The translations under genes and the position numbers were made by a program. The notes below the pieces were generated by a model. The model made no database searches, was not told the origin of the DNA, and saw nothing but the letters and a program-made list of their open reading frames with translations. From contig JAACJQ010000219.1 of NCBI GenBank assembly GCA_016879935.1, forward strand, positions 1 through 64,000: a DNA stretch of 64,000 nt, in the 5' to 3' direction. This document shows positions 46,068-54,806 of the stretch, piece by piece. Numbering within the stretch: the first letter of the stretch is position 1; every line of letters starts with the position of its first letter. This DNA comes from Archangiaceae bacterium. GTDB taxonomy: Bacteria > Myxococcota > Myxococcia > Myxococcales > Myxococcaceae.

Positions 46068-47366
46068 ATGCGCCTCATGCCGCAGAACCTCCGCGCTCCC
46101 TGGGTGCCCTTCGTCATCGCCTCGGTGGTGTTCACGGTGCTCGTCGGCGCGTTGAACGGCGCGTGGAACCTGTGGTCGCTGCACGTGCTGCAGGTGCCGG
46201 TGCCCGTCGAGCATCACCAGTCGCACGCCATCGCGCAGGTGTTCGGCTTCATGTGGCTCTTGAAGGTGGGCATCTCGTTTCATCTCGCACCGCGCTTGAT
46301 GGGTGGAGCGCCGCCGTCGCCGAAGCTCGTGAAGTCGGTCGCGCTCGCGGGCATCAGCGGCGTCGCGTTGCTGGTGCTGGGCCGGTTCGGCTCGTTGCTC
46401 CCCGGCAGCGCGTTTCTGGGCCTCGTCGGCGCGGTGCTGCTGCTCGCCGCCGTCACACTGTGGACGCGCTTCTTCTGGCAGCTCTTCCTCGCGCGCCCGA
46501 CGCCGACCGACTGGTTGCCCGTCTTCGTGACGAGCGGCGCGAGCTGGTGGTCGTTCTCGGCGGTGATGCTGCTGGGCTGGCAGCTCGGGCAGAGCATCGG
46601 TGGGCCGCTCGCGCGCATTCCGTTCGACCTGGTGACGATGAGCGGCCTGCTGGGTGGAACGGGCGGCTGCATTCTCGGCATCACGCTGCGCGCTGGAGCG
46701 TGCGCGATGCGAATTGCGCACCCGCCCGTCTCTCGGCAGGGCATCGGCTTCTTCGCGTGGCAGCTCGGCACGGTCGCGTTGCTGGTGAAGACGCTCACGC
46801 CATTCGAGTCGTGGAGTGACGTGCTGTGGCTCGGCCCCGCGCTCGCCATCGTGGTGATGGTGTGGGTCGTGCGGCCGTTCCAGAAGGTCGCGCCCGCGAT
46901 GGGCCCAGAGCCGCTGATTCGGTTCGCCATGGTGGCGTCGTGGGCCTTCGGGCTCGCGGGCGCCGTGTTGATGACGTGGCAGGCGCTCGCGCTCGTCGGC
47001 GTCACGCAGCCGCCGCTGCTCCGTGATGCGGCGAGGCACGCGTTCACGCTCGGGTTCGGACAGCTCGGTGTGCTCGCCTTCGCGGGAAGAATGGTGCCCG
47101 GCTTCGAGGGCGTTCGGCTGCCTTCGCGAGGCATCTTCGACGCGGGCATTCTCTTCGTGACGGCCAGCGCGGGGCTGCGGCTGCTCAGCGTCTTCGGCCC
47201 TTCGCGTGGCGCGCTCGTGGCGTCGGGCGTCTCGGGCCCGCTCGCGCTCGTCGGCGTCTGTCTCGTGAGCTGGTGTCTGGTGCGGGCGCTGCGCGGTGGT
47301 GCGGCGCTGCGTCGCGAGCTCGAGACCAGCCGCGCCGCCGTCACCGTTCGGCTGGTGGAGGCCTGA
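46068..47366 (+). CDS. NnrS-family-like polytopic membrane protein
   Basis: A protein of 432 residues with about twelve membrane helices. Two His-rich helices match the NnrS pattern: EHHQSHAIAQVFGF near 46-60 and RHAFTLGFGQLGVLAFAGRM near 323-342. NnrS proteins are haem- and copper-containing membrane proteins that protect against nitric oxide and help under nitrosative stress. Here the gene ends 1 bp into the FAAL start (TGATG), so it is probably co-translated with it, which is an unusual pairing. Confidence 0.7.
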   Translation: MRLMPQNLRAPWVPFVIASVVFTVLVGALNGAWNLWSLHVLQVPVPVEHHQSHAIAQVFGFMWLLKVGISFHLAPRLMGGAPPSPKLVKSVALAGISGVALLVLGRFGSLLPGSAFLGLVGAVLLLAAVTLWTRFFWQLFLARPTPTDWLPVFVTSGASWWSFSAVMLLGWQLGQSIGGPLARIPFDLVTMSGLLGGTGGCILGITLRAGACAMRIAHPPVSRQGIGFFAWQLGTVALLVKTLTPFESWSDVLWLGPALAIVVMVWVVRPFQKVAPAMGPEPLIRFAMVASWAFGLAGAVLMTWQALALVGVTQPPLLRDAARHAFTLGFGQLGVLAFAGRMVPGFEGVRLPSRGIFDAGILFVTASAGLRLLSVFGPSRGALVASGVSGPLALVGVCLVSWCLVRALRGGAALRRELETSRAAVTVRLVEA

Positions 47367-48946
47367 TGGCGCGCGCGTGGGTGAAGGGCCCCGAAGCGAC
47401 GTCTTCTGACGTGCGGCTGCTGCGCTGGCTCTCGGAGCACGAAGGCGACGCCCGGCCGTGGCTCACCTTTCATCAAGGCGCGACGCCCGACGTGCTGCTC
47501 TTCTCTGACGCCGCGCCGCTCGCGCGACGGTGGGCGAAGGCGCTCTCGGAAGCAGGCGTGACGCGCGGGGACCGCGTGGCCATCTTCGTCCCCAACGGCC
47601 GCGACTTCGTCGGCGCGTTCTTCGGCACGCAGTGGCTCGGCGCGACGGCGGTGCCCGTTCCCTGGCCTGCGACGTCACTCGCAGCCGACCTGCCCGCGAG
47701 CGCGAAGCTGTTGCTCGAGACGTGTCGCGCGAAGGTGGTGTGCGCTCCCGGTCGTGCAGAGGGCCTGGGGTGGACGGTGCTCTCGGCGCCCTCGGAGGTC
47801 GAGTTCGACGCGCCGCCCGTCGATGGCGAGGCTGCCTTCATTCAGTTCTCGTCGGGCAGCACCGGCCGGCCCCGTGGAGCCGTCATCGGCCCCCGCGCCG
47901 CCGCGCTCTCGGCGCAGGTGATGGCCGAAGGGCTGCATCTCACCTCGAGCGACATCGGCGTCTCGTGGCTGCCGTTCTTTCACGACATGGGCCTCGTCGG
48001 CGTGGTGCTCACCTCGCTGGCCGCTGGCTTTCCCGTGCACGTGCTGCAACCCGGAGAGTTCCTGCTGCGGCCGGCGCGCTGGCTCGAGCTGTGTTCCCGC
48101 GTGGGCGCGACGATGACGGTGGCGCCGAATTTTGCGTACGAGCTGGTGCTGCGCCGCGTGCGTCACCCGAAAGACCTCGACCTCTCGCCGCTGCGCTCGA
48201 TGTTGAACGGCTCCGAGCCGGTGCATCGCGCGACCATCGAGCGCTTCGAAGCTGCGTTCGCGCCAGTCGGGCTTCGCAAGGGTGTCGTGTTGCCGGTGTA
48301 CGGGCTCGCCGAGAACGTGCTCGGCGTCGCGTTTCAACCGCAGGGCGCTCCTGATGCCGACCTCGCGCTCGAGGGCCGCGTGGTGCCGAGCTGTGGTGGC
48401 CCGCTGCGCGGTCTCGAGGTCGCGATTCGCAACGAAGCGGGAGACGTCGTCGGCGAGGGCCAGGAAGGCGAAGTCACCGTGCGTGGGCCGACGTTGATGT
48501 CGGGCTACTTCGACGACCCCGAGTCGACCGCGCGTGCGCTGCGCGATGGCTGGTTGTTCACGGGAGACCGCGGCGTGCTGGTGAACGGCCGCCTGCACCT
48601 GACCGGTCGCGAGAAGGAACTCATCATCAAGATGGGCCGCAAGTTCCACCCGGCCGACATCGAGCGCATCGTGACCGACGTCGCCGACCCGCCGCCGAAC
48701 GGGATGGTCGCCTTCTCGGTGGATGATCAATCGACGAACCAGGAAGCGCTGGTGGTCGTCGTCGAGCAGCGCCGTGCGTCGGAGACCGGCCTCGTCGACC
48801 GCATTCGTGGACGGGTGAGCGCAGAACTCGGCGTGATGGTCGACCGCATCGAGCTCGTCGGCGCCGGCGCGTTGCCTCGCACCACGAGCGGAAAGCTGCG
48901 GCGCAAGGAATGTACGGCGCGCTTCGCGAAGGCGGCGGCTCCGTGA
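47366..48946 (+). CDS. Fatty-acyl-AMP ligase (FAAL)
   Basis: A protein of 526 residues from the ATG at 47366. The ANL-family phosphate loop is QFSSGSTGRPRGAVI near 162, followed by SWLPFFHDMGLVG near 197, MLNGSEPV near 277, PVYGLAENVLG near 309, LFTGDRG near 395 and GREKELIIKMGRKFHP near 413. This order and wording fit FAALs rather than acetyl-CoA synthetases. FAALs activate fatty acids as acyl-adenylates and load them onto an acyl carrier protein. The ACP gene three positions downstream is the likely acceptor. It is the entry step of the proposed lipid pathway. Confidence 0.9.
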   Translation: MARAWVKGPEATSSDVRLLRWLSEHEGDARPWLTFHQGATPDVLLFSDAAPLARRWAKALSEAGVTRGDRVAIFVPNGRDFVGAFFGTQWLGATAVPVPWPATSLAADLPASAKLLLETCRAKVVCAPGRAEGLGWTVLSAPSEVEFDAPPVDGEAAFIQFSSGSTGRPRGAVIGPRAAALSAQVMAEGLHLTSSDIGVSWLPFFHDMGLVGVVLTSLAAGFPVHVLQPGEFLLRPARWLELCSRVGATMTVAPNFAYELVLRRVRHPKDLDLSPLRSMLNGSEPVHRATIERFEAAFAPVGLRKGVVLPVYGLAENVLGVAFQPQGAPDADLALEGRVVPSCGGPLRGLEVAIRNEAGDVVGEGQEGEVTVRGPTLMSGYFDDPESTARALRDGWLFTGDRGVLVNGRLHLTGREKELIIKMGRKFHPADIERIVTDVADPPPNGMVAFSVDDQSTNQEALVVVVEQRRASETGLVDRIRGRVSAELGVMVDRIELVGAGALPRTTSGKLRRKECTARFAKAAAP

Positions 48947-48970
48947 GAGATGCCACGGGGCTCAGCGGCG

Positions 48971-49253
48971 AGTCGCGTCGCGAACGCAACATGCATCCGG
49001 CGGGAGCACCCGCTGAGACGAGCGCTGCCTCGCAGCGCGGCTCGCGTCGCGAACTCAACGTGCACCTGGCGGGAGGACGCGCCGAGACGAGTGTTCCCTC
49101 GCAGCGCGGCTCGCGTCGCGAACCACCTGGCCGGATCAATCCAGGAGACGAGCGCTGCCTCGGAGCGCGGCTCGCGTCGCGAACACAACGTGCACCTGGC
49201 CGCATCACCCGCAGAGACGAGCGCTGCCTCGGCGTGCGGCTCGCGTCGCGAGG
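48971..49253 (+). repeat. Tandem array of about 69-bp repeats between FAAL and epimerase genes
   Basis: The core CTCGCGTCGCGAAC begins at 48971 (one base different), 49041, 49110, 49171 and 49240 (truncated). Spacings are 70, 69, 61 and 69 bp. Between cores lie conserved phrases such as GTGCACCTGG and GAGACGAGCGCTGCCTCG; copy three has lost about 8 bp. TCGCG-T-CGCGA is itself an imperfect palindrome. The array fills the 340-bp gap between two otherwise tightly packed genes. No open frame spans it cleanly, because the 61-bp copy breaks phase. No other copy of the core was seen in the window. Confidence 0.85.
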
Positions 49254-49286
49254 CCCGCGCCACGGCGCGCGCGGAGAGGCGACTCG

Positions 49287-50324
49287 ATGAGTGACGCCGT
49301 GGCGGCTCCCGTCAGCAGTCGACCGCCCGCGCTCGTGCTCGGCGCCGCCGGATTCCTCGGGCTCAACCTCGTCGACGCCCTGGTCGCCGATGGCCAGCAA
49401 CCACGCTGTGGCCGCCGCGCACGCACGAACGTGCTGGCGCTTCGTCAACGCAAGGTGCCGCTGGTGCAGGCCGACTTCGACGCGCCCGAGACGCTGCGCG
49501 AGGCGATGAAGGGCATCGACGTCGTCTACCACCTCGGTGGGCACTACCCGCGGCTCTCGCTCGACCTCGAGAAGGAGCGCCACATCGGGCTCACCCGCCT
49601 CGAGCGCGTGCTCGACGCCGCCGCCGAGACGGGCGTGCGCCGGCTCGTCTACGTCTCGTCGACCGCCACCGTCGCGCCTCGCACCGACGGCAGCGGCTCG
49701 ACCGAGGTCGACCTCTTCGACACGCCGCCGACGTGGGGCGCGTACCACGACCTCAAGTGGCACCTCGAAGCGCGCGCGTTGGCCGAGAAGCGATGGGAGG
49801 TCGTCGTCGCGTGCCCCGGAGCGTGCCTCGGCCCGTGGGACCTGCGGATGGGCACCTCGACGATGCTGGTCGGGCTCGCGCGCGGCCTCGACGTTCCCCA
49901 CCCTGATGGCCTCGTGAGCTGGGTCGACGCGCGTGACGTCGCGAAGGGGCTGCTCGCGCTCGGCACCATGACGGACCCGCCGCGCCGCGTGCTGCTCTCG
50001 GCCGAGAGCATTCGGCTGCAGTCGCTGCTCGAAGTGGCGGCGGCGTTCTACGGCGTCACCGCTCCGCCCGCGCTGAGTGACGCCGAAGCCCTCGCGTTCG
50101 CCGACGCCGAAGAGCACCGCGCAGCCGAAGGTGGCCCGCGTGCCCGGCTCGCGCGCGAGCTCGTCGACCTCATCATTCACGGCCCGTTCATCGACGCCAC
50201 ACGGAGCCGTCACCAGCTCGGCGTCACCTACCGCCCCCTCGACGAGACGCTGCGCGACTTCGACGCGTGGGCTCGCCGCGTTCGTTTCATCCCCACGAAG
50301 TCGACCCAGGAAGCCGCCCCATGA
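49287..50324 (+). CDS. NAD-dependent epimerase/dehydratase (extended SDR)
   Basis: A protein of 345 residues. The Rossmann motif is LGAAGFLGLNLV near 18-29, the Ser is in YVSSTATVAP near 124, and the catalytic YHDLK is near 152. The closest broad class is extended SDRs such as dihydroflavonol reductase or 3-beta-hydroxysteroid dehydrogenase-like proteins, which reduce or oxidise a hydroxyl group. In a FAAL-ACP operon a beta-ketoacyl or aldehyde substrate is plausible. Its stop overlaps the ACP start (ATGA). Confidence 0.85.
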   Translation: MSDAVAAPVSSRPPALVLGAAGFLGLNLVDALVADGQQPRCGRRARTNVLALRQRKVPLVQADFDAPETLREAMKGIDVVYHLGGHYPRLSLDLEKERHIGLTRLERVLDAAAETGVRRLVYVSSTATVAPRTDGSGSTEVDLFDTPPTWGAYHDLKWHLEARALAEKRWEVVVACPGACLGPWDLRMGTSTMLVGLARGLDVPHPDGLVSWVDARDVAKGLLALGTMTDPPRRVLLSAESIRLQSLLEVAAAFYGVTAPPALSDAEALAFADAEEHRAAEGGPRARLARELVDLIIHGPFIDATRSRHQLGVTYRPLDETLRDFDAWARRVRFIPTKSTQEAAP

Positions 50325-50575
50325 CCCAGCCCACCATCGAGACCCGCGTCATTCACCTCATCTCGCAGCTCGTTCCCGTGAAGTCGCAAGACATCAAGCC
50401 CGAGCAGCGGCTGCGTGACGACCTCGGCATGGACTCGGTCTCGTCGATGGAGCTGCTGTCGATGCTGGCCGAAGACTTCGAGCTCGACGTCGGCGTCGAA
50501 GACGTGGCCGACGTGCACACCGTCGCGCAGACCATCGAGCTGGTGAAGGTGTTCCTCGCGAAGAAGGCGGCGTGA
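50321..50575 (+). CDS. Acyl carrier protein
   Basis: A protein of 84 residues. The phosphopantetheine attachment motif is LGMDSVSSMEL with Ser39. The rest is the usual four-helix acidic fold (LAEDFELDVGVEDVADV). It is not adjacent to fatty-acid synthesis genes such as fabF or fabD, so it is likely a dedicated carrier for the acyl chain loaded by the FAAL. It overlaps the epimerase stop by ATGA and the dehydrogenase gene starts 1 bp after its own stop. Confidence 0.93.
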   Translation: MTQPTIETRVIHLISQLVPVKSQDIKPEQRLRDDLGMDSVSSMELLSMLAEDFELDVGVEDVADVHTVAQTIELVKVFLAKKAA

Positions 50576-50576
50576 G

Positions 50577-52028
50577 ATGCCTTCCGACGTCGTCGTCGCG
50601 CTGACCGAGCAGACCCGCCGGTACTGCGCCAAAGAGGTGAACGCGCAGGCCATCGACGCGGCTGCGAAGATTCCACGACACGTGCTCGAGGGGCTGGCCG
50701 AGCTGGGCCTCTTCGGCATCACGTTGCCCGAGGCGCACGGCGGCGCGGGCTTGACCCTCTCCGATGCGTGTCACGTCGTCGACGAGCTCGCGCGCTTCGA
50801 CCGCTCCGTCGCGGTGTCGGTGGGCCTGCACCTCGGCCTCGGCACACGCGGTCTCGTGCGGTACGGCTCGGCGGGCCAGCACGTGCAGTGGCTCCCGTCG
50901 CTGGCGACCGGCCAGACCATCGCGGCGTTCTCGACGACCGAACCCGGCGCGGGCAGCGACCTCTCGACGCTGCGCACGGTGGCCACCGAGAAGGGCGAGC
51001 AGCTGAGCGTCACCGGCGAGAAGAGCTACGTCACCAACGGTGCCTTCGCGGGCCTCTTCACGGTGGCGGTCTCGACGCCGGGCCTCGGTGGAGCGCAGCG
51101 CGGCCAGAGCCTCGTGCTCGTCGAACCGAAAGACCGCGGCTTCACCGTGCAGCGCGAGGAGCACAAGCTGGGCCTCAAGGGCTCCTCCACCACGGGGCTG
51201 CTCTTCGAAGACGCGCAGCTGCCGCGCGAACGCCTGCTCGGCGAGCCCGGCCAGGGCGCGCGCATGCTCTCGCACATTCTCTCGTGGGGCCGCACGCTGA
51301 TGTCGGCCGGCTGTTGTGGCGCGGCGGCGTACGCCATCGACAAGGCGACCGAGCACACGACGCAGCGCACGCAGTTCGGCCGGCCCCTCTTCGCGCTCGA
51401 CGTCGTGAAGGAGCGGCTCGCCCGACTCCGCGCGCGTCACTTCGCGATGGAGGCGCTGGTTCAGGCGACGGCGAAGAAGGAGCAGGACGAGGCGCTGGCC
51501 GTGAGCTCGCTCGCAGCGAAGGTCTTCTGCTCCGAAGGCGCCGGCTGGGTCGCCGACGAAGCGGTGCAACTGCACGGCGCCCTGGGCTTCATCGAAGACA
51601 CGGGCCTGGCGCTGGTGCTGCGCGACGTTCGTGTCACACGCATCTTCGAAGGCGCCAACGACGTGCTCCTCACTCACCTCGGCACGAGCGAGCTGGCGCG
51701 GCGGGCGCAAGAAGGCCCGCAGCACTCCATCAACGAGCTCGAGAGCGCCCTGGCCGACTTCGCGCAATCCTTGTCATCGAAATACAAGCTGCGCGTCTTC
51801 CGAGCGCCGCGGCTGTTGCATGCATTGGGCGTCGCCACCGAATGGGTGATGGCGTCGCGCGCCGCGACCGACCGCGCCCACGAGTCTCAGTCGGCCACGC
51901 ACCTCGCGATGGCGCGCCTCATCGAGCAGGAAGCCCGCGTGGTGGTCGCGCAGGCCGCAGCGGTGTCAGTAGATGATTCCCTCTTCCACCAGGTGCTCGG
52001 CCTCGAGCGCCCCGGAGCCACGTCATGA
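50577..52028 (+). CDS. Acyl-CoA (or acyl-ACP) dehydrogenase
   Basis: A protein of 483 residues. Visible family motifs are GITLPEAHGGAGLTLSDA near 50, FSTTEPGAGSDLS near 125, YVTNGAFAG near 155, a RTQFGRPL segment near 263, and IFEGANDVLLTHLG near 357, which carries the catalytic-base position Glu. The extension beyond residue 380 is larger than in short-chain members. FAD-dependent alpha,beta-desaturation of an acyl thioester is expected. Beside an ACP and FAAL, the substrate is probably ACP-bound, as in several specialised-metabolite pathways. It overlaps the next start by ATGA. Confidence 0.9.
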   Translation: MPSDVVVALTEQTRRYCAKEVNAQAIDAAAKIPRHVLEGLAELGLFGITLPEAHGGAGLTLSDACHVVDELARFDRSVAVSVGLHLGLGTRGLVRYGSAGQHVQWLPSLATGQTIAAFSTTEPGAGSDLSTLRTVATEKGEQLSVTGEKSYVTNGAFAGLFTVAVSTPGLGGAQRGQSLVLVEPKDRGFTVQREEHKLGLKGSSTTGLLFEDAQLPRERLLGEPGQGARMLSHILSWGRTLMSAGCCGAAAYAIDKATEHTTQRTQFGRPLFALDVVKERLARLRARHFAMEALVQATAKKEQDEALAVSSLAAKVFCSEGAGWVADEAVQLHGALGFIEDTGLALVLRDVRVTRIFEGANDVLLTHLGTSELARRAQEGPQHSINELESALADFAQSLSSKYKLRVFRAPRLLHALGVATEWVMASRAATDRAHESQSATHLAMARLIEQEARVVVAQAAAVSVDDSLFHQVLGLERPGATS

Positions 52029-53314
52029 AGGTGTTGTTCGTCTACCCGCGCTTCCAGCGCCACGCCCAGGCCCACCCCGAGCTGCTCGAGTACGTGCCGA
52101 TGAACGAGTACCTCGGCTCCCCGTCGCTGGGCATCGCCGCGCTCGCCGCCATTCTGCCGCCGCACTGGGAGATGGAGTTCCGCGACGACCGCCTGCAAGA
52201 CGCCGCGCGCCCCACCGACGCCGACCTCGTCGCGTTGTCGTTCTTCACGGCCGCGGCGTCTCGTGGCCTCGAGCTGGCCGACTACTTCCGCACGCAGGGC
52301 AAGCCGACGGTGGCGGGCGGGCTCTTCACCACTGCGATGCCCGAGGTGGTGATGCAGCACGCCGACGCGGTGGTGGTCGGCGAAGGTGAAGGCGCCTGGC
52401 TGCAGCTGCTGAAGGACTTCGAGGCCGGCGGGCTCCAGCGCCGCTACGAGCGCGTGCCGGTCGATTTGACCGCGCTCCCGCCGCCGAAGGTCTCGCTGTA
52501 CATCGATGGAGAAGGCCCTGCCTTTCACCCCGACGACTACCCGGTACAGCTCTCGCGTGGCTGCCCGCTGAATTGCCACTCGTGCATTCTGCCGGTGTCG
52601 ATGACGAAGCAGCTGCGTGAGTTCACGCTCTCGCAGGTCGTCACACAGCTCGAGCAGCTCGGCTCGAAGGGCAAACGCGCCTGCCTCACGGAAGACACCT
52701 CGTGGCTGCCCGGCAAGGGCAACCGGTTGCTCGAGTCGCTCTTCGACCACCTCATCGCCGAGGGGAAAGAAGCGACCGTCAGCTACGTGGGCATCTCGAT
52801 GCCGATGATTCTGGCGACGCCGCTGGCGCTCCTGAAGAAGGCGCGGCGCGCGGGCGTGAAGATGTTCTACCTCGTCGGCGGCTTCGACCCGGTGACGATG
52901 AAGGCCTTCACCGGCAGAGACCCGGTGCAGCTCGACCGCGCGTACAAGGCCATCGCGAAGTGCTTCGAGGCCGACATCGAGCCGTACACCTCGTTCCTCT
53001 TCGGGCAGGACGACGACGACGTGGGCACCGTCGACCGCATGCTCGAGTTCGCGAAGAAGTCGGGCATTCGAAAGGCCGAGTTCGCCATCTTCACGCCCTA
53101 CCCCGGCACGCCCAGCTTCAAGCGGCTCGAGGCCGAGGGCCGAATCCTCACGAGGGAGTGGCGCAAGTACAACGACGCGAACTGCGTCTACCAGCCGAAG
53201 CAGATGACGCCCGAGCAGGTGACGCAGGGCTACCTGCGGCTGTGGCGCGAGTTCTACGCCGACAAGGGCTACTTCCAGGACCGCTGCCACGACGAGCGAA
53301 CGATTCAGTTCTGA
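52025..53314 (+). CDS. B12-binding domain radical SAM enzyme
   Basis: A protein of 429 residues. The N-terminal 130 residues have the Rossmann-like cobalamin-binding pattern (MKVLFVYPRF, SPSLGIAALAAIL, VALSFFTAAASRG, VAGGLFTTAMPEVV), without the DxHxxG motif, as usual in this class. The radical SAM cluster is CPLNCHSC (C180, C184, C187). The C-terminal part has FTPYPGTPSFKRLEAEGRI, common in the class. Members perform methylation at inert carbons, ring contractions or cyclisations. Its position after an acyl-ACP dehydrogenase suggests action on the acyl chain, which is inference. Confidence 0.88.
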   Translation: MKVLFVYPRFQRHAQAHPELLEYVPMNEYLGSPSLGIAALAAILPPHWEMEFRDDRLQDAARPTDADLVALSFFTAAASRGLELADYFRTQGKPTVAGGLFTTAMPEVVMQHADAVVVGEGEGAWLQLLKDFEAGGLQRRYERVPVDLTALPPPKVSLYIDGEGPAFHPDDYPVQLSRGCPLNCHSCILPVSMTKQLREFTLSQVVTQLEQLGSKGKRACLTEDTSWLPGKGNRLLESLFDHLIAEGKEATVSYVGISMPMILATPLALLKKARRAGVKMFYLVGGFDPVTMKAFTGRDPVQLDRAYKAIAKCFEADIEPYTSFLFGQDDDDVGTVDRMLEFAKKSGIRKAEFAIFTPYPGTPSFKRLEAEGRILTREWRKYNDANCVYQPKQMTPEQVTQGYLRLWREFYADKGYFQDRCHDERTIQF

Positions 53315-53332
53315 AGAACGAGGGGGGCTGCC

Positions 53333-54424
53333 GTGCACGTCGTCGTCATCGGCGCAGGCATCGCAGGGTTGTCGACGGCGCTCGGGCTCGCGCGCGCGGG
53401 CGTTCGGGTGACGGTGCTCGAGCGCGGTGACACGGTGTTCTCGGGAGCCTCGGGGCTGAACGCAGCCATCTACCGCCCCCTCGAAGACGACGCGGTGATG
53501 ACGTCGTTCGCGCAGCGCAACGCGCGCCTGCTCGACGAGCTGCTGGGGCACCGCACGGCCTGGCTCGACGCGCGAGGGCTGGTGCTCGCGGGAGACACGA
53601 AGGTGGTGCGGCGGCTGGCGGCCGAGGCAGCCAGGGCCGGGCTCGTGGCGCAGCCCTGGGCCACCGTCGGCGAGCGGGTGGAGGTGCTCGACGGCGGCTC
53701 GGCAGAGGCGGGGCTGTGGCTCGCGGCGGGCGGCGTGATGGACCTGCATCGCATCGCACGGGCGCTCGAGCTCGCCTGCCGGAAGCTGGGTGTCGAGTTC
53801 CGCTTCGGTGTCGAGGTGACGGGGCTCTCGTCGTTCCGTGGCGCGCGGTGGGCGCTGACGACGAAGGGCGCTCCCGAGCAGCTCGGCGACGCCGTGGTGC
53901 TCGCCGCGGGTGCGCAGGCAGGCAGGCTCGCCGCGATGGCGGGCTCGAAGGTCGGAGTGACGTCGTACCGAAGAACGCTGGCGTTGCTCGAGCCAGCCAG
54001 CCGCCTTCACGTGCGCCAGGTCGTCTGGGACGTCTCGACGCAGGTCTACCTGCGCGAGGAGTCAGGCGGCGTGCTCGCCTCACCGTGTGAAGAAGTGGCC
54101 ACCGAGCCGAACGTGACGCCCACGGTCGACCAGCACGCGCTCGCGATGCTGGCCGAGAAGCTGGCCGTCGTGACGCCCGCGCTCGCCAACGCCGGCGTTC
54201 GACGTGCCTGGGCTGGCCTGCGCACGTTCTCGTTCGACCGGCTGCCCCTCATCGGCGCCGACCCGCAGGTGGCAGGGTTGTACTGGTGTACAGGGTTTGG
54301 TGGCGCGGGCATGACGACGGGCCTCGCGCTCGGCGCTGCCGCAGCCAGGGCCGTGCTCGGTGGCAGAACGTCGAAGGCGATTGCCGCGCGGACGGCTCCG
54401 CTGACGGCTGCACGACTCGCCTGA
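53333..54424 (+). CDS. FAD-dependent oxidoreductase, D-amino-acid/glycine-oxidase type
   Basis: A protein of 363 residues from a GTG 18 bp after the radical SAM gene, with AGGGGG-type RBS upstream. The dinucleotide-binding motif is VVIGAGIAGLSTALGLARAG at 4-23 and the C-terminal FAD contact is TGFGGAGMTTGLALG near 328. The DAO-family segments GLRTFSFDRLPLIG and YRPLEDD are also visible. It would oxidise an amine or a secondary alcohol. As the last gene of the FAAL run it is the likely final or tailoring step. Confidence 0.88.
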   Translation: MHVVVIGAGIAGLSTALGLARAGVRVTVLERGDTVFSGASGLNAAIYRPLEDDAVMTSFAQRNARLLDELLGHRTAWLDARGLVLAGDTKVVRRLAAEAARAGLVAQPWATVGERVEVLDGGSAEAGLWLAAGGVMDLHRIARALELACRKLGVEFRFGVEVTGLSSFRGARWALTTKGAPEQLGDAVVLAAGAQAGRLAAMAGSKVGVTSYRRTLALLEPASRLHVRQVVWDVSTQVYLREESGGVLASPCEEVATEPNVTPTVDQHALAMLAEKLAVVTPALANAGVRRAWAGLRTFSFDRLPLIGADPQVAGLYWCTGFGGAGMTTGLALGAAAARAVLGGRTSKAIAARTAPLTAARLA

Positions 54425-54455: not shown

Positions 54456-54806
54456 ATGAAGTTCTTCGGAGCGACGCTGGTCTTCATCGCCGAGCTCGGC
54501 ATGCTCGCGGGCCTCGGTCGTTGGGCGTGGTCGCGCGCTCCGGGCCTTTGGGGAGGGCTGCTGGCCCTCGGGGTGTGTCTCGTCGTCGGGGCAGTCTGGG
54601 GCGTCTTTCTGTCTCCGAAAGCGCGCTGGCCGATTCGCTCGTTCGCGCTGACGACCACGCTTCGACTGGCGCTGTTGCTGGGTGGAGCCGCGGCGGCCTG
54701 GTTCGCTCAGGTCGAGTGGCTGGGCGTCGCGACGGCGCTCCTGGCGACGGTGGGCACGGCGCTGGCTGGCCGCACCGCGACGGAGCGAGCGCCGGGCGTG
54801 GGCTGA
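54456..54806 (+). CDS. YrdB/DUF2568-like membrane protein
   Basis: A protein of 116 residues with four hydrophobic helices. The family-type phrases are VFIAELGMLAGLGRWAW near the start, then GAVWGVFLSPKARWPI near 47-62. YrdB proteins are of unknown function. It follows the FAAL run by 31 bp on the same strand, so it may or may not belong to that unit. Confidence 0.75.
   Translation: MKFFGATLVFIAELGMLAGLGRWAWSRAPGLWGGLLALGVCLVVGAVWGVFLSPKARWPIRSFALTTTLRLALLLGGAAAAWFAQVEWLGVATALLATVGTALAGRTATERAPGVG

Follow-up and report, generated by a model that had tools for sequence, protein, structure and literature searches.

Five genes on the plus strand of the window, the 64,000-nt stretch of contig JAACJQ010000219.1 studied here, form a real conserved operon. 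In order they encode a fatty acyl-AMP ligase (FAAL; 47366..48946), a probable NAD(P)H-dependent reductase of the extended short-chain dehydrogenase/reductase family (SDR; 49287..50324), a stand-alone acyl carrier protein (ACP; 50321..50575), an acyl dehydrogenase of the acyl-CoA dehydrogenase family (ACAD; 50577..52028), and a radical S-adenosylmethionine (SAM) enzyme with a B12-binding domain (rSAM; 52025..53314). The conserved operon and the key residues retained in ACP, ACAD, SDR and rSAM give direct support, and the five genes very probably make up one acyl-ACP pathway; the substrate, the order of the steps, methylation and the mode of release are what we infer beyond that. With clearly less than even confidence, we consider it possible that uncultured Myxococcota, together with a small number of further lineages, share a lipid or signal pathway not described so far. 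There, a new subfamily of B12-type rSAM would build carbon onto the enoyl chain carried by ACP, or within that chain, and release would be swapped between reduction by SDR and amino-acid condensation by a serine-palmitoyltransferase-like alpha-oxoamine synthase (AOS), giving modified fatty aldehydes or amino ketones. L-numbers below denote other loci, G-numbers denote genomes of the phylum set, and statements about cited papers refer to excerpts of their text.

Conservation of the five-gene core

We searched 195 genomes of the phylum with the rSAM, ACAD and SDR proteins, scoring the best 8-10 first-look candidates per genome and setting the orthologue thresholds at clear gaps (424 versus 178 bits for rSAM, fragments aside; 320 versus 270 bits for ACAD). 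Full-length rSAM orthologues (48-100% identity, at least 424 bits) were found in 26 genomes, including the window's own. Below them came a single genome with a 90-residue fragment (G068, 80% complete, the fragment lying at a contig end and an ACAD orthologue not being found), after which identity dropped to 35%. ACAD orthologues (at least 320 bits) occurred in 27 of the 195 genomes: the 26 with full-length rSAM, and G025, whose contig carries the SDR and ends inside ACAD, so that the cluster is cut by the contig end. SDR matches (E up to 1e-45) were confined to 21 genomes, all among these 27; five of the six ACAD genomes without such a match hold the SDR-less loci L099 and L101-L104, and in the sixth (G156, locus L098) the SDR is cut by the contig start. 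A plasmid search for rSAM returned 7 records, all 27-32% identical to the window's protein. As a separate observation, five matches to B12-type rSAM paralogues (30-35% identical to the window's) lie within ~13 kb on one contig of another genome of the same taxonomic order (L127, G053:C2:4500-20500).

A species-level rSAM profile scan, which took one genome per species, used two peptide patterns and may miss relatives, yielded 52 loci, all from uncultured bins (51 titles begin with MAG and 1 names a bin) and none from isolates. The window's nearest named relative is L064, from a Myxococcaceae bin, with an rSAM 93% identical. Since the operon was met here only in uncultured genomes, it may represent chemistry that culture collections have missed. 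Profiles were mapped onto 53 loci (the window, L054 and L064-L114; L115 is a fragment and was left unmapped), and the orthologous set comprises 50 of these after removal of L109-L111. Not all of them are independent: L065/L066 and L071/L113 are pairs each from one genome, and L082 and L084 have near-identical rSAM proteins.

Within the 50 orthologous loci, when only those whose flanks reach far enough are counted, the rSAM strand carries ACAD in 36/36, ACP in 39/39, FAAL in 31/33 and SDR in 31/36, FAAL-SDR-ACP-ACAD-rSAM being the commonest order. In a distant clade (12 rows, support 100/99) the genes run ACP-rSAM-ACAD, L111 excepted. Pairwise distances run parallel between rSAM and FAAL, SDR or ACAD (r = 0.90-0.91) and between rSAM and ACP (r = 0.80), a pattern that, in a comparison with no control gene, could arise from common descent alone. 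The first-pass annotation of this DNA had left room for the genes being neighbours by accident; that explanation fails because the gene set, the strand and mostly the order are kept in tens of genomes across the phylum. The same conservation supports its proposal of a dedicated acyl-ACP pathway built from FAAL, stand-alone ACP, ACAD and B12-type rSAM.

Several loci weigh against the acyl-ACP scheme set out below. FAAL was not found near rSAM in L095, L108 or L102 (in L102, 4.9 kb upstream was covered) and lies downstream instead in L093 and L098; L094, 56% identical, has no ACAD within its 1,163 nt upstream; and in L109-L111, whose rSAM proteins are 40-45% identical to the window's, none of the core genes adjoins rSAM. 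A further unusual locus, L100, shows the arrangement FAAL-ACP-rSAM-ACAD on a contig filed as Candidatus Kuenenia stuttgartiensis. Its G+C content is 62% and Kuenenia genomes have a far lower G+C, so this contig may be misbinned.

The ligase (PF00501, 187.7 bits) resembles FAALs more than CoA ligases in sequence comparison. Its nearest solved structure is 3pbk, a FAAL, at 251.1 bits versus 147.6 bits for the best 4-coumarate CoA ligase, and it scored up to 184 bits against chains titled 'acyl-CoA synthase', which we take to be FAAL32. Among the best 25 of 101 NCBIfam matches, 'fatty acyl-AMP ligase' came first with 342 bits (cut-off 600) and a 'CoA ligase' subfamily 301.3 bits, also under its cut-off. 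The alignment is gap-free in the FAAL-helix region named in a figure legend of PMC8460268; as a point against the scheme as a whole, the FAAL-specific insertion looks ~19 residues shorter than that of 3pbk in the sequence alignment. In the ACP (PF00550, 45.4 bits), Ser39 is invariant in 20/20 aligned sequences. The dehydrogenase contains three ACAD domains, and its Glu358, invariant in 21/21 aligned sequences, aligns with the RIFEG motif of very-long-chain acyl-CoA dehydrogenase, at the position that is presumably the catalytic base. This enzyme is the nearest relative of ACAD, which hints at a long chain.

From these assignments a pathway can be sketched, which as a whole we regard as tentative and judge somewhat more apt to fail in some part than to hold throughout. 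FAAL would activate a fatty acid as acyl-AMP and load it onto the stand-alone ACP, and ACAD would convert the acyl-ACP to 2-enoyl-ACP by 2,3-desaturation. Next, the rSAM would modify the chain while it is attached to ACP; C-methylation of a carbon that is unactivated or allylic would be the likeliest reaction, with another C-C change as the alternative. SDR would reduce a carbonyl and may free the chain as an aldehyde; in the AOS-bearing clade, AOS would free the chain instead, via decarboxylative condensation with an amino acid.

The radical SAM enzyme and its candidate reactions

The rSAM was identified from an invariant CX3CX2C motif (Cys180/184/187 in 20/20 aligned sequences), a B12-binding domain above cut-off (PF02310, 41.6 bits, cut-off 32.1) and the fold; DUF4070 was also matched, and the Pfam Radical_SAM model scored 25.3 bits, under its cut-off of 29.5. 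The predicted structure (mean pLDDT 88) gave its best fold match to AprD4 (Z 30.8, 383 residues, root-mean-square deviation 3.1), ahead of MgmA (Z 26.0), CysS (24.7), OxsB (23.4), TsrM (22.9), MiaB (22.6) and TokK (17.9); in this list, as in that for SDR below, the absence of a family does not exclude that family. Two features of the list speak against a methylase: AprD4, at its head, is a dehydratase, and MiaB/RimO stand at Z 21-23, near the methylase scores. Neither MiaB nor RimO is a B12 enzyme, and fold alone therefore settles neither cofactor nor reaction.

Sequence comparison of the core placed MgmA (37.2 bits) about level with AprD4 (35.7 bits), with CysS matched over residues 42-228 at 28.3 bits, and a profile of the N-terminal domain had two matches up to E 10, TokK (E = 0.0027) and 4q37 (E = 0.018). 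TokK has Trp76, from the loop that follows strand 3, beneath its cobalt (PMC13331322). The aligned residue of the rSAM is Pro in 15/20 and Ala in 5/20 sequences, uncharged as in other methylases. Methylation is described as the commonest reaction of the B12-rSAM class (PMC11659888), and CysS is a methylase of pantetheinylated substrates (PMC12846815); for these reasons methylation of the ACP-bound chain is our first choice, and we hold it as close to an even call, falling just short of one.

AprD4 works with an NADPH-dependent reductase, AprD3 (PMC5461906), and by analogy the rSAM might be a radical dehydratase or isomerase whose substrate is an oxygenated chain, and SDR might be the NAD(P)H reductase that serves it. 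The fold match and the tie between AprD4 and MgmA in core sequence are in keeping with this idea, which we nevertheless consider improbable: AprD4 has the cluster motif CX3CX3C, versus CX3CX2C in 20/20 aligned rSAM sequences, the AprD4 model NF033070 scored 27.8 bits (cut-off 500), and AprD4 was not among the N-terminal profile matches. In addition, rSAM is kept where SDR is absent, in L099 and L101-L104 and also in L100.

Alternatively, the rSAM could join or close carbons, forming a ring or cross-link on the acyl chain with no methyl added, as proposed for ladderanes; one B12-rSAM encoded by an anammox bacterium has been put forward as a candidate cyclase (PMC2649909). The ring contractase OxsB is among the fold matches, and the NCBIfam matches include BchE (47.5 bits) and the ladderane B12-rSAM model TIGR04072 (37.9 bits), but these scores are far under the respective cut-offs of 481.35 and 360, and both a ketosynthase and a phytoene-desaturase-like gene are absent from the conserved core in the 53 mapped loci. 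We give this reaction a small chance. Whichever carbon change takes place, an acyl-ACP that is small and free-standing should make the radical carbon chemistry easy to reconstitute, and the action of B12 radical enzymes on fatty chains could then be studied in a compact system.

SDR, AOS and the proposed release of the chain

In the SDR (PF01370), glycines 19/22/25, Tyr153 and Lys157 are conserved in 20/20 aligned sequences. Its predicted structure (pLDDT 94) is most similar to PA4631 (Z 34.5), Gox2253 (33.3), cinnamoyl-CoA reductases (31-32) and dihydroflavonol reductase (31.0). The first-pass label 'epimerase/reductase' thus comes down to an extended SDR whose nearest folds take in a protein titled sugar epimerase (PA4631), Gox2253 and the plant cinnamoyl-CoA reductases. 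The nearest NCBIfam model is the hopanoid-associated SDR HpnA (TIGR03466; 131.5 bits, cut-off 367.65). SDR likely reduces a carbonyl. Cinnamoyl-CoA reductase reduces its thioester and releases an aldehyde, and it is this precedent, together with the distribution of SDR and AOS described next, that leads us to propose aldehyde release by SDR.

Thirty-six loci had enough flank to judge the presence of SDR, and the SDR-less ones, L099 and L101-L104, group with L111 (support 96/98). In L099, L101, L102 and L103 an AOS gene of one family directly follows ACAD; the L104 contig ends there. The AOS of L099 matched alpha-oxoamine synthases, best of all a serine palmitoyltransferase model (403.8 bits, cut-off 640). 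SDR and AOS were found together in none of the mapped loci within the stretches covered. The final domain-architecture tree has 11 label changes and its 'none' rows are mostly incomplete contigs, and it was used for the AOS clade only. We infer that SDR and AOS are alternative ways of taking the chain off the carrier, and the AOS-bearing, SDR-less subclade suggests that chain release is an exchangeable step. Should the exchange reflect a switch in how the chain is released, it would be a natural example of a swappable last step.

Three observations count against this interpretation. PA4631, the protein titled sugar epimerase, tops the SDR fold list (true sugar epimerases follow from Z 30.2 down); in L100 no SDR separates FAAL from ACP, and no AOS is visible up to the contig end; and the loss of SDR and gain of AOS, having occurred in one lineage, could be unrelated. 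Because of L100 and the epimerase title of the best fold match we slightly lowered our estimate that SDR is the chain-releasing enzyme, a role suggested by analogy that we now regard as doubtful. In a locus of the same clade, L111:5333-14215 (a Bryobacterales bin), rSAM is followed by a single-module KS-AT-DH-ER-KR-ACP polyketide synthase and then by the same AOS family.

The operon might instead feed a sphingolipid-like pathway, in which it would supply a special acyl-ACP to an AOS nearby (in the AOS clade) or elsewhere in the genome (in the window type), and SDR would reduce the resulting ketone. The ceramide genes of Caulobacter comprise serine palmitoyltransferase, a special ACP, an acyl-ACP synthetase and an epimerase/dehydrogenase (PMC9386255), and the rhodobacterial genes spt, acpR, aasR and cerR likewise combine a special ACP with its own acyl-ACP synthetase and an SDR-type reductase (PMC9386255, PMC11087976). 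The ceramide AOS has a counterpart here in one clade only, near the operon in L099 and L101-L103, where the L099 protein is nearest to serine palmitoyltransferase models; in the window's genome (a 9.5-Mb draft in 445 contigs), four AOS-like matches (28-35% identical) lie on contigs other than the window's. However, SDR and AOS never stand together in the stretches covered, the known ceramide loci as described have neither ACAD nor rSAM, and CerR is a periplasmic, NDUFA9-like protein (PMC11087976), versus an SDR nearest to HpnA. We therefore consider a sphingolipid-like pathway quite improbable. An identification of SDR as CerR was dropped; the comparison with CerR is by its description in the literature, and the plasmid loci L124 and L125, which carry serine-palmitoyltransferase-like genes, match the window's proteins at chance level.

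Related systems and changing neighbours

Some parts of the gene set have counterparts in the mycobactin, ceramide and swf systems. No description of the FAAL-SDR-ACP-ACAD-rSAM combination itself was met among the papers listed by the open-access literature searches, most of them judged on title and opening of the abstract. The accessible text of a 2025 FAAL review (PMC11837247) does not contain the term 'radical SAM', and none of six window proteins (the core five and the product of the flavin-dependent oxidoreductase gene downstream) reached a curated NCBIfam cut-off, judged for the ligase on its best 25 of 101 matches and for the oxidoreductase on its best 25 of 75. In mycobactin biosynthesis, MbtM, MbtL and MbtN are an acyl-ACP ligase, a carrier protein and an acyl-ACP dehydrogenase acting together. 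The operon shares this trio, but the mycobactin acyl genes lack rSAM and SDR, and the NCBIfam models for MbtM (254.9 bits, cut-off 621, among the best 25 of 101) and MbtN (62.3 bits, cut-off 700) were matched far below cut-off.

The swf cluster of sponge symbionts, described as widespread and of unknown function (PMC3908369), resembles the operon in combining an acyl-ACP maker, a thioester reductase and a B12-rSAM, SwfC, a proposed methyltransferase. It differs in that its chain is made by a type I polyketide synthase/fatty acid synthase (swfA) and its reductase is fused to a sulphotransferase; SwfC has 585 residues versus 429 in the window's rSAM, and FAAL, free ACP and ACAD are unreported in the available text of that paper. 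The rSAM-polyketide synthase-AOS locus of L111 resembles the swf cluster, and no polyketide synthase occurs among the window's operon genes according to the open reading frame list and Pfam. The cystobactamid enzyme CysS (PMC12846815) is, like the window's rSAM, a myxobacterial, cobalamin-dependent rSAM, with a pantetheinylated substrate and a similar fold, but its substrate is aromatic and belongs to a nonribosomal peptide synthetase pathway, its chain has 645 residues, and identity to the window's rSAM is ~10% when structurally aligned. The AprD4/AprD3 pair of apramycin biosynthesis (PMC5461906) is like the operon in joining an rSAM to an NAD(P)H reductase, and differs in its sugar substrate as well as its cluster motif.

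The first-pass annotation listed six genes on one strand, the sixth being the oxidoreductase gene at 53333..54424, and all six indeed lie on the plus strand. The tight junctions it reported were confirmed: SDR/ACP and ACAD/rSAM are ATGA overlaps, and the gaps are 1 nt for ACP/ACAD and 18 nt for rSAM/oxidoreductase. The sixth gene had been called amine-oxidase-like and assigned an oxidation or amination step. It encodes a DAO-family FAD oxidoreductase (PF01266, 178 bits, versus 22.5 bits for PF01593), and as a core gene it was rejected: DAO is present in 5/53 mapped loci, all the window or its close relatives, and lies on the rSAM strand in 3/43 orthologous loci with at least 1,500 nt downstream. 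Directly 3' of it, a DUF2568 membrane protein gene (54456-54806; 49.3 bits, cut-off 24.2) was seen only in the window among the mapped loci listed.

At the other end of the operon, the NnrS-like membrane protein gene (46068..47366, plus strand) is translationally coupled to FAAL and not fused to it as had been supposed: its TGA stop and the start codon of FAAL, ATG, have one base in common (TGATG), and the same overlap, with the proteins in different frames, is found in L064 and L067. An apparent 974-residue NnrS-FAAL frame in L067 proved to be an out-of-frame extension, the two proteins lying in different frames. Support for naming it NnrS is weak (PF05940, E = 0.013, 15.3 bits, cut-off 28), and profile matches were restricted to the window, L064 and L067 among the 53 loci, which makes the gene an accessory of close relatives and not part of the core.

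The genes do not follow the tandem repeat array, as first described; the array (48973..49251) sits within the set, between FAAL and SDR. This imperfect array has an 18-nt core repeated five times at spacings of 61-69 nt, and the exact 16-nt repeat core has 4 matches in its own genome, all here. It is not conserved: L064 has no repeat at the FAAL/SDR junction. L067 has at the same junction a 39-nt tandem repeat (L067:3663-3974) unlike the window's 69-nt array in sequence, and minisatellites seem to arise readily at this junction within the genus. An RNA element was discarded as an explanation of the array, which folds no better than shuffles (z = 0.43) and is missing or different in L064 and L067.

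Away from the window's close relatives, what lies downstream of the operon varies. Recurrent non-core neighbours, grouped by BLAST and with one member of each family domain-scanned, comprise a second rSAM (8 loci), a LuxR/GerE regulator (11; L096 scanned), AOS (5) and a tryptophanase-like family (3; L091 scanned); eight further neighbours among those scanned had no Pfam match. The small GerE C-terminal protein occurs near the operon in L081-L083, L085, L087, L089, L090, L092, L096, L107 and L114, and the tryptophanase-like gene is downstream, next to rSAM in L091 and a few kb off in L081 and L085. That the core stays the same and the end varies is in keeping with a family of specialised metabolites.

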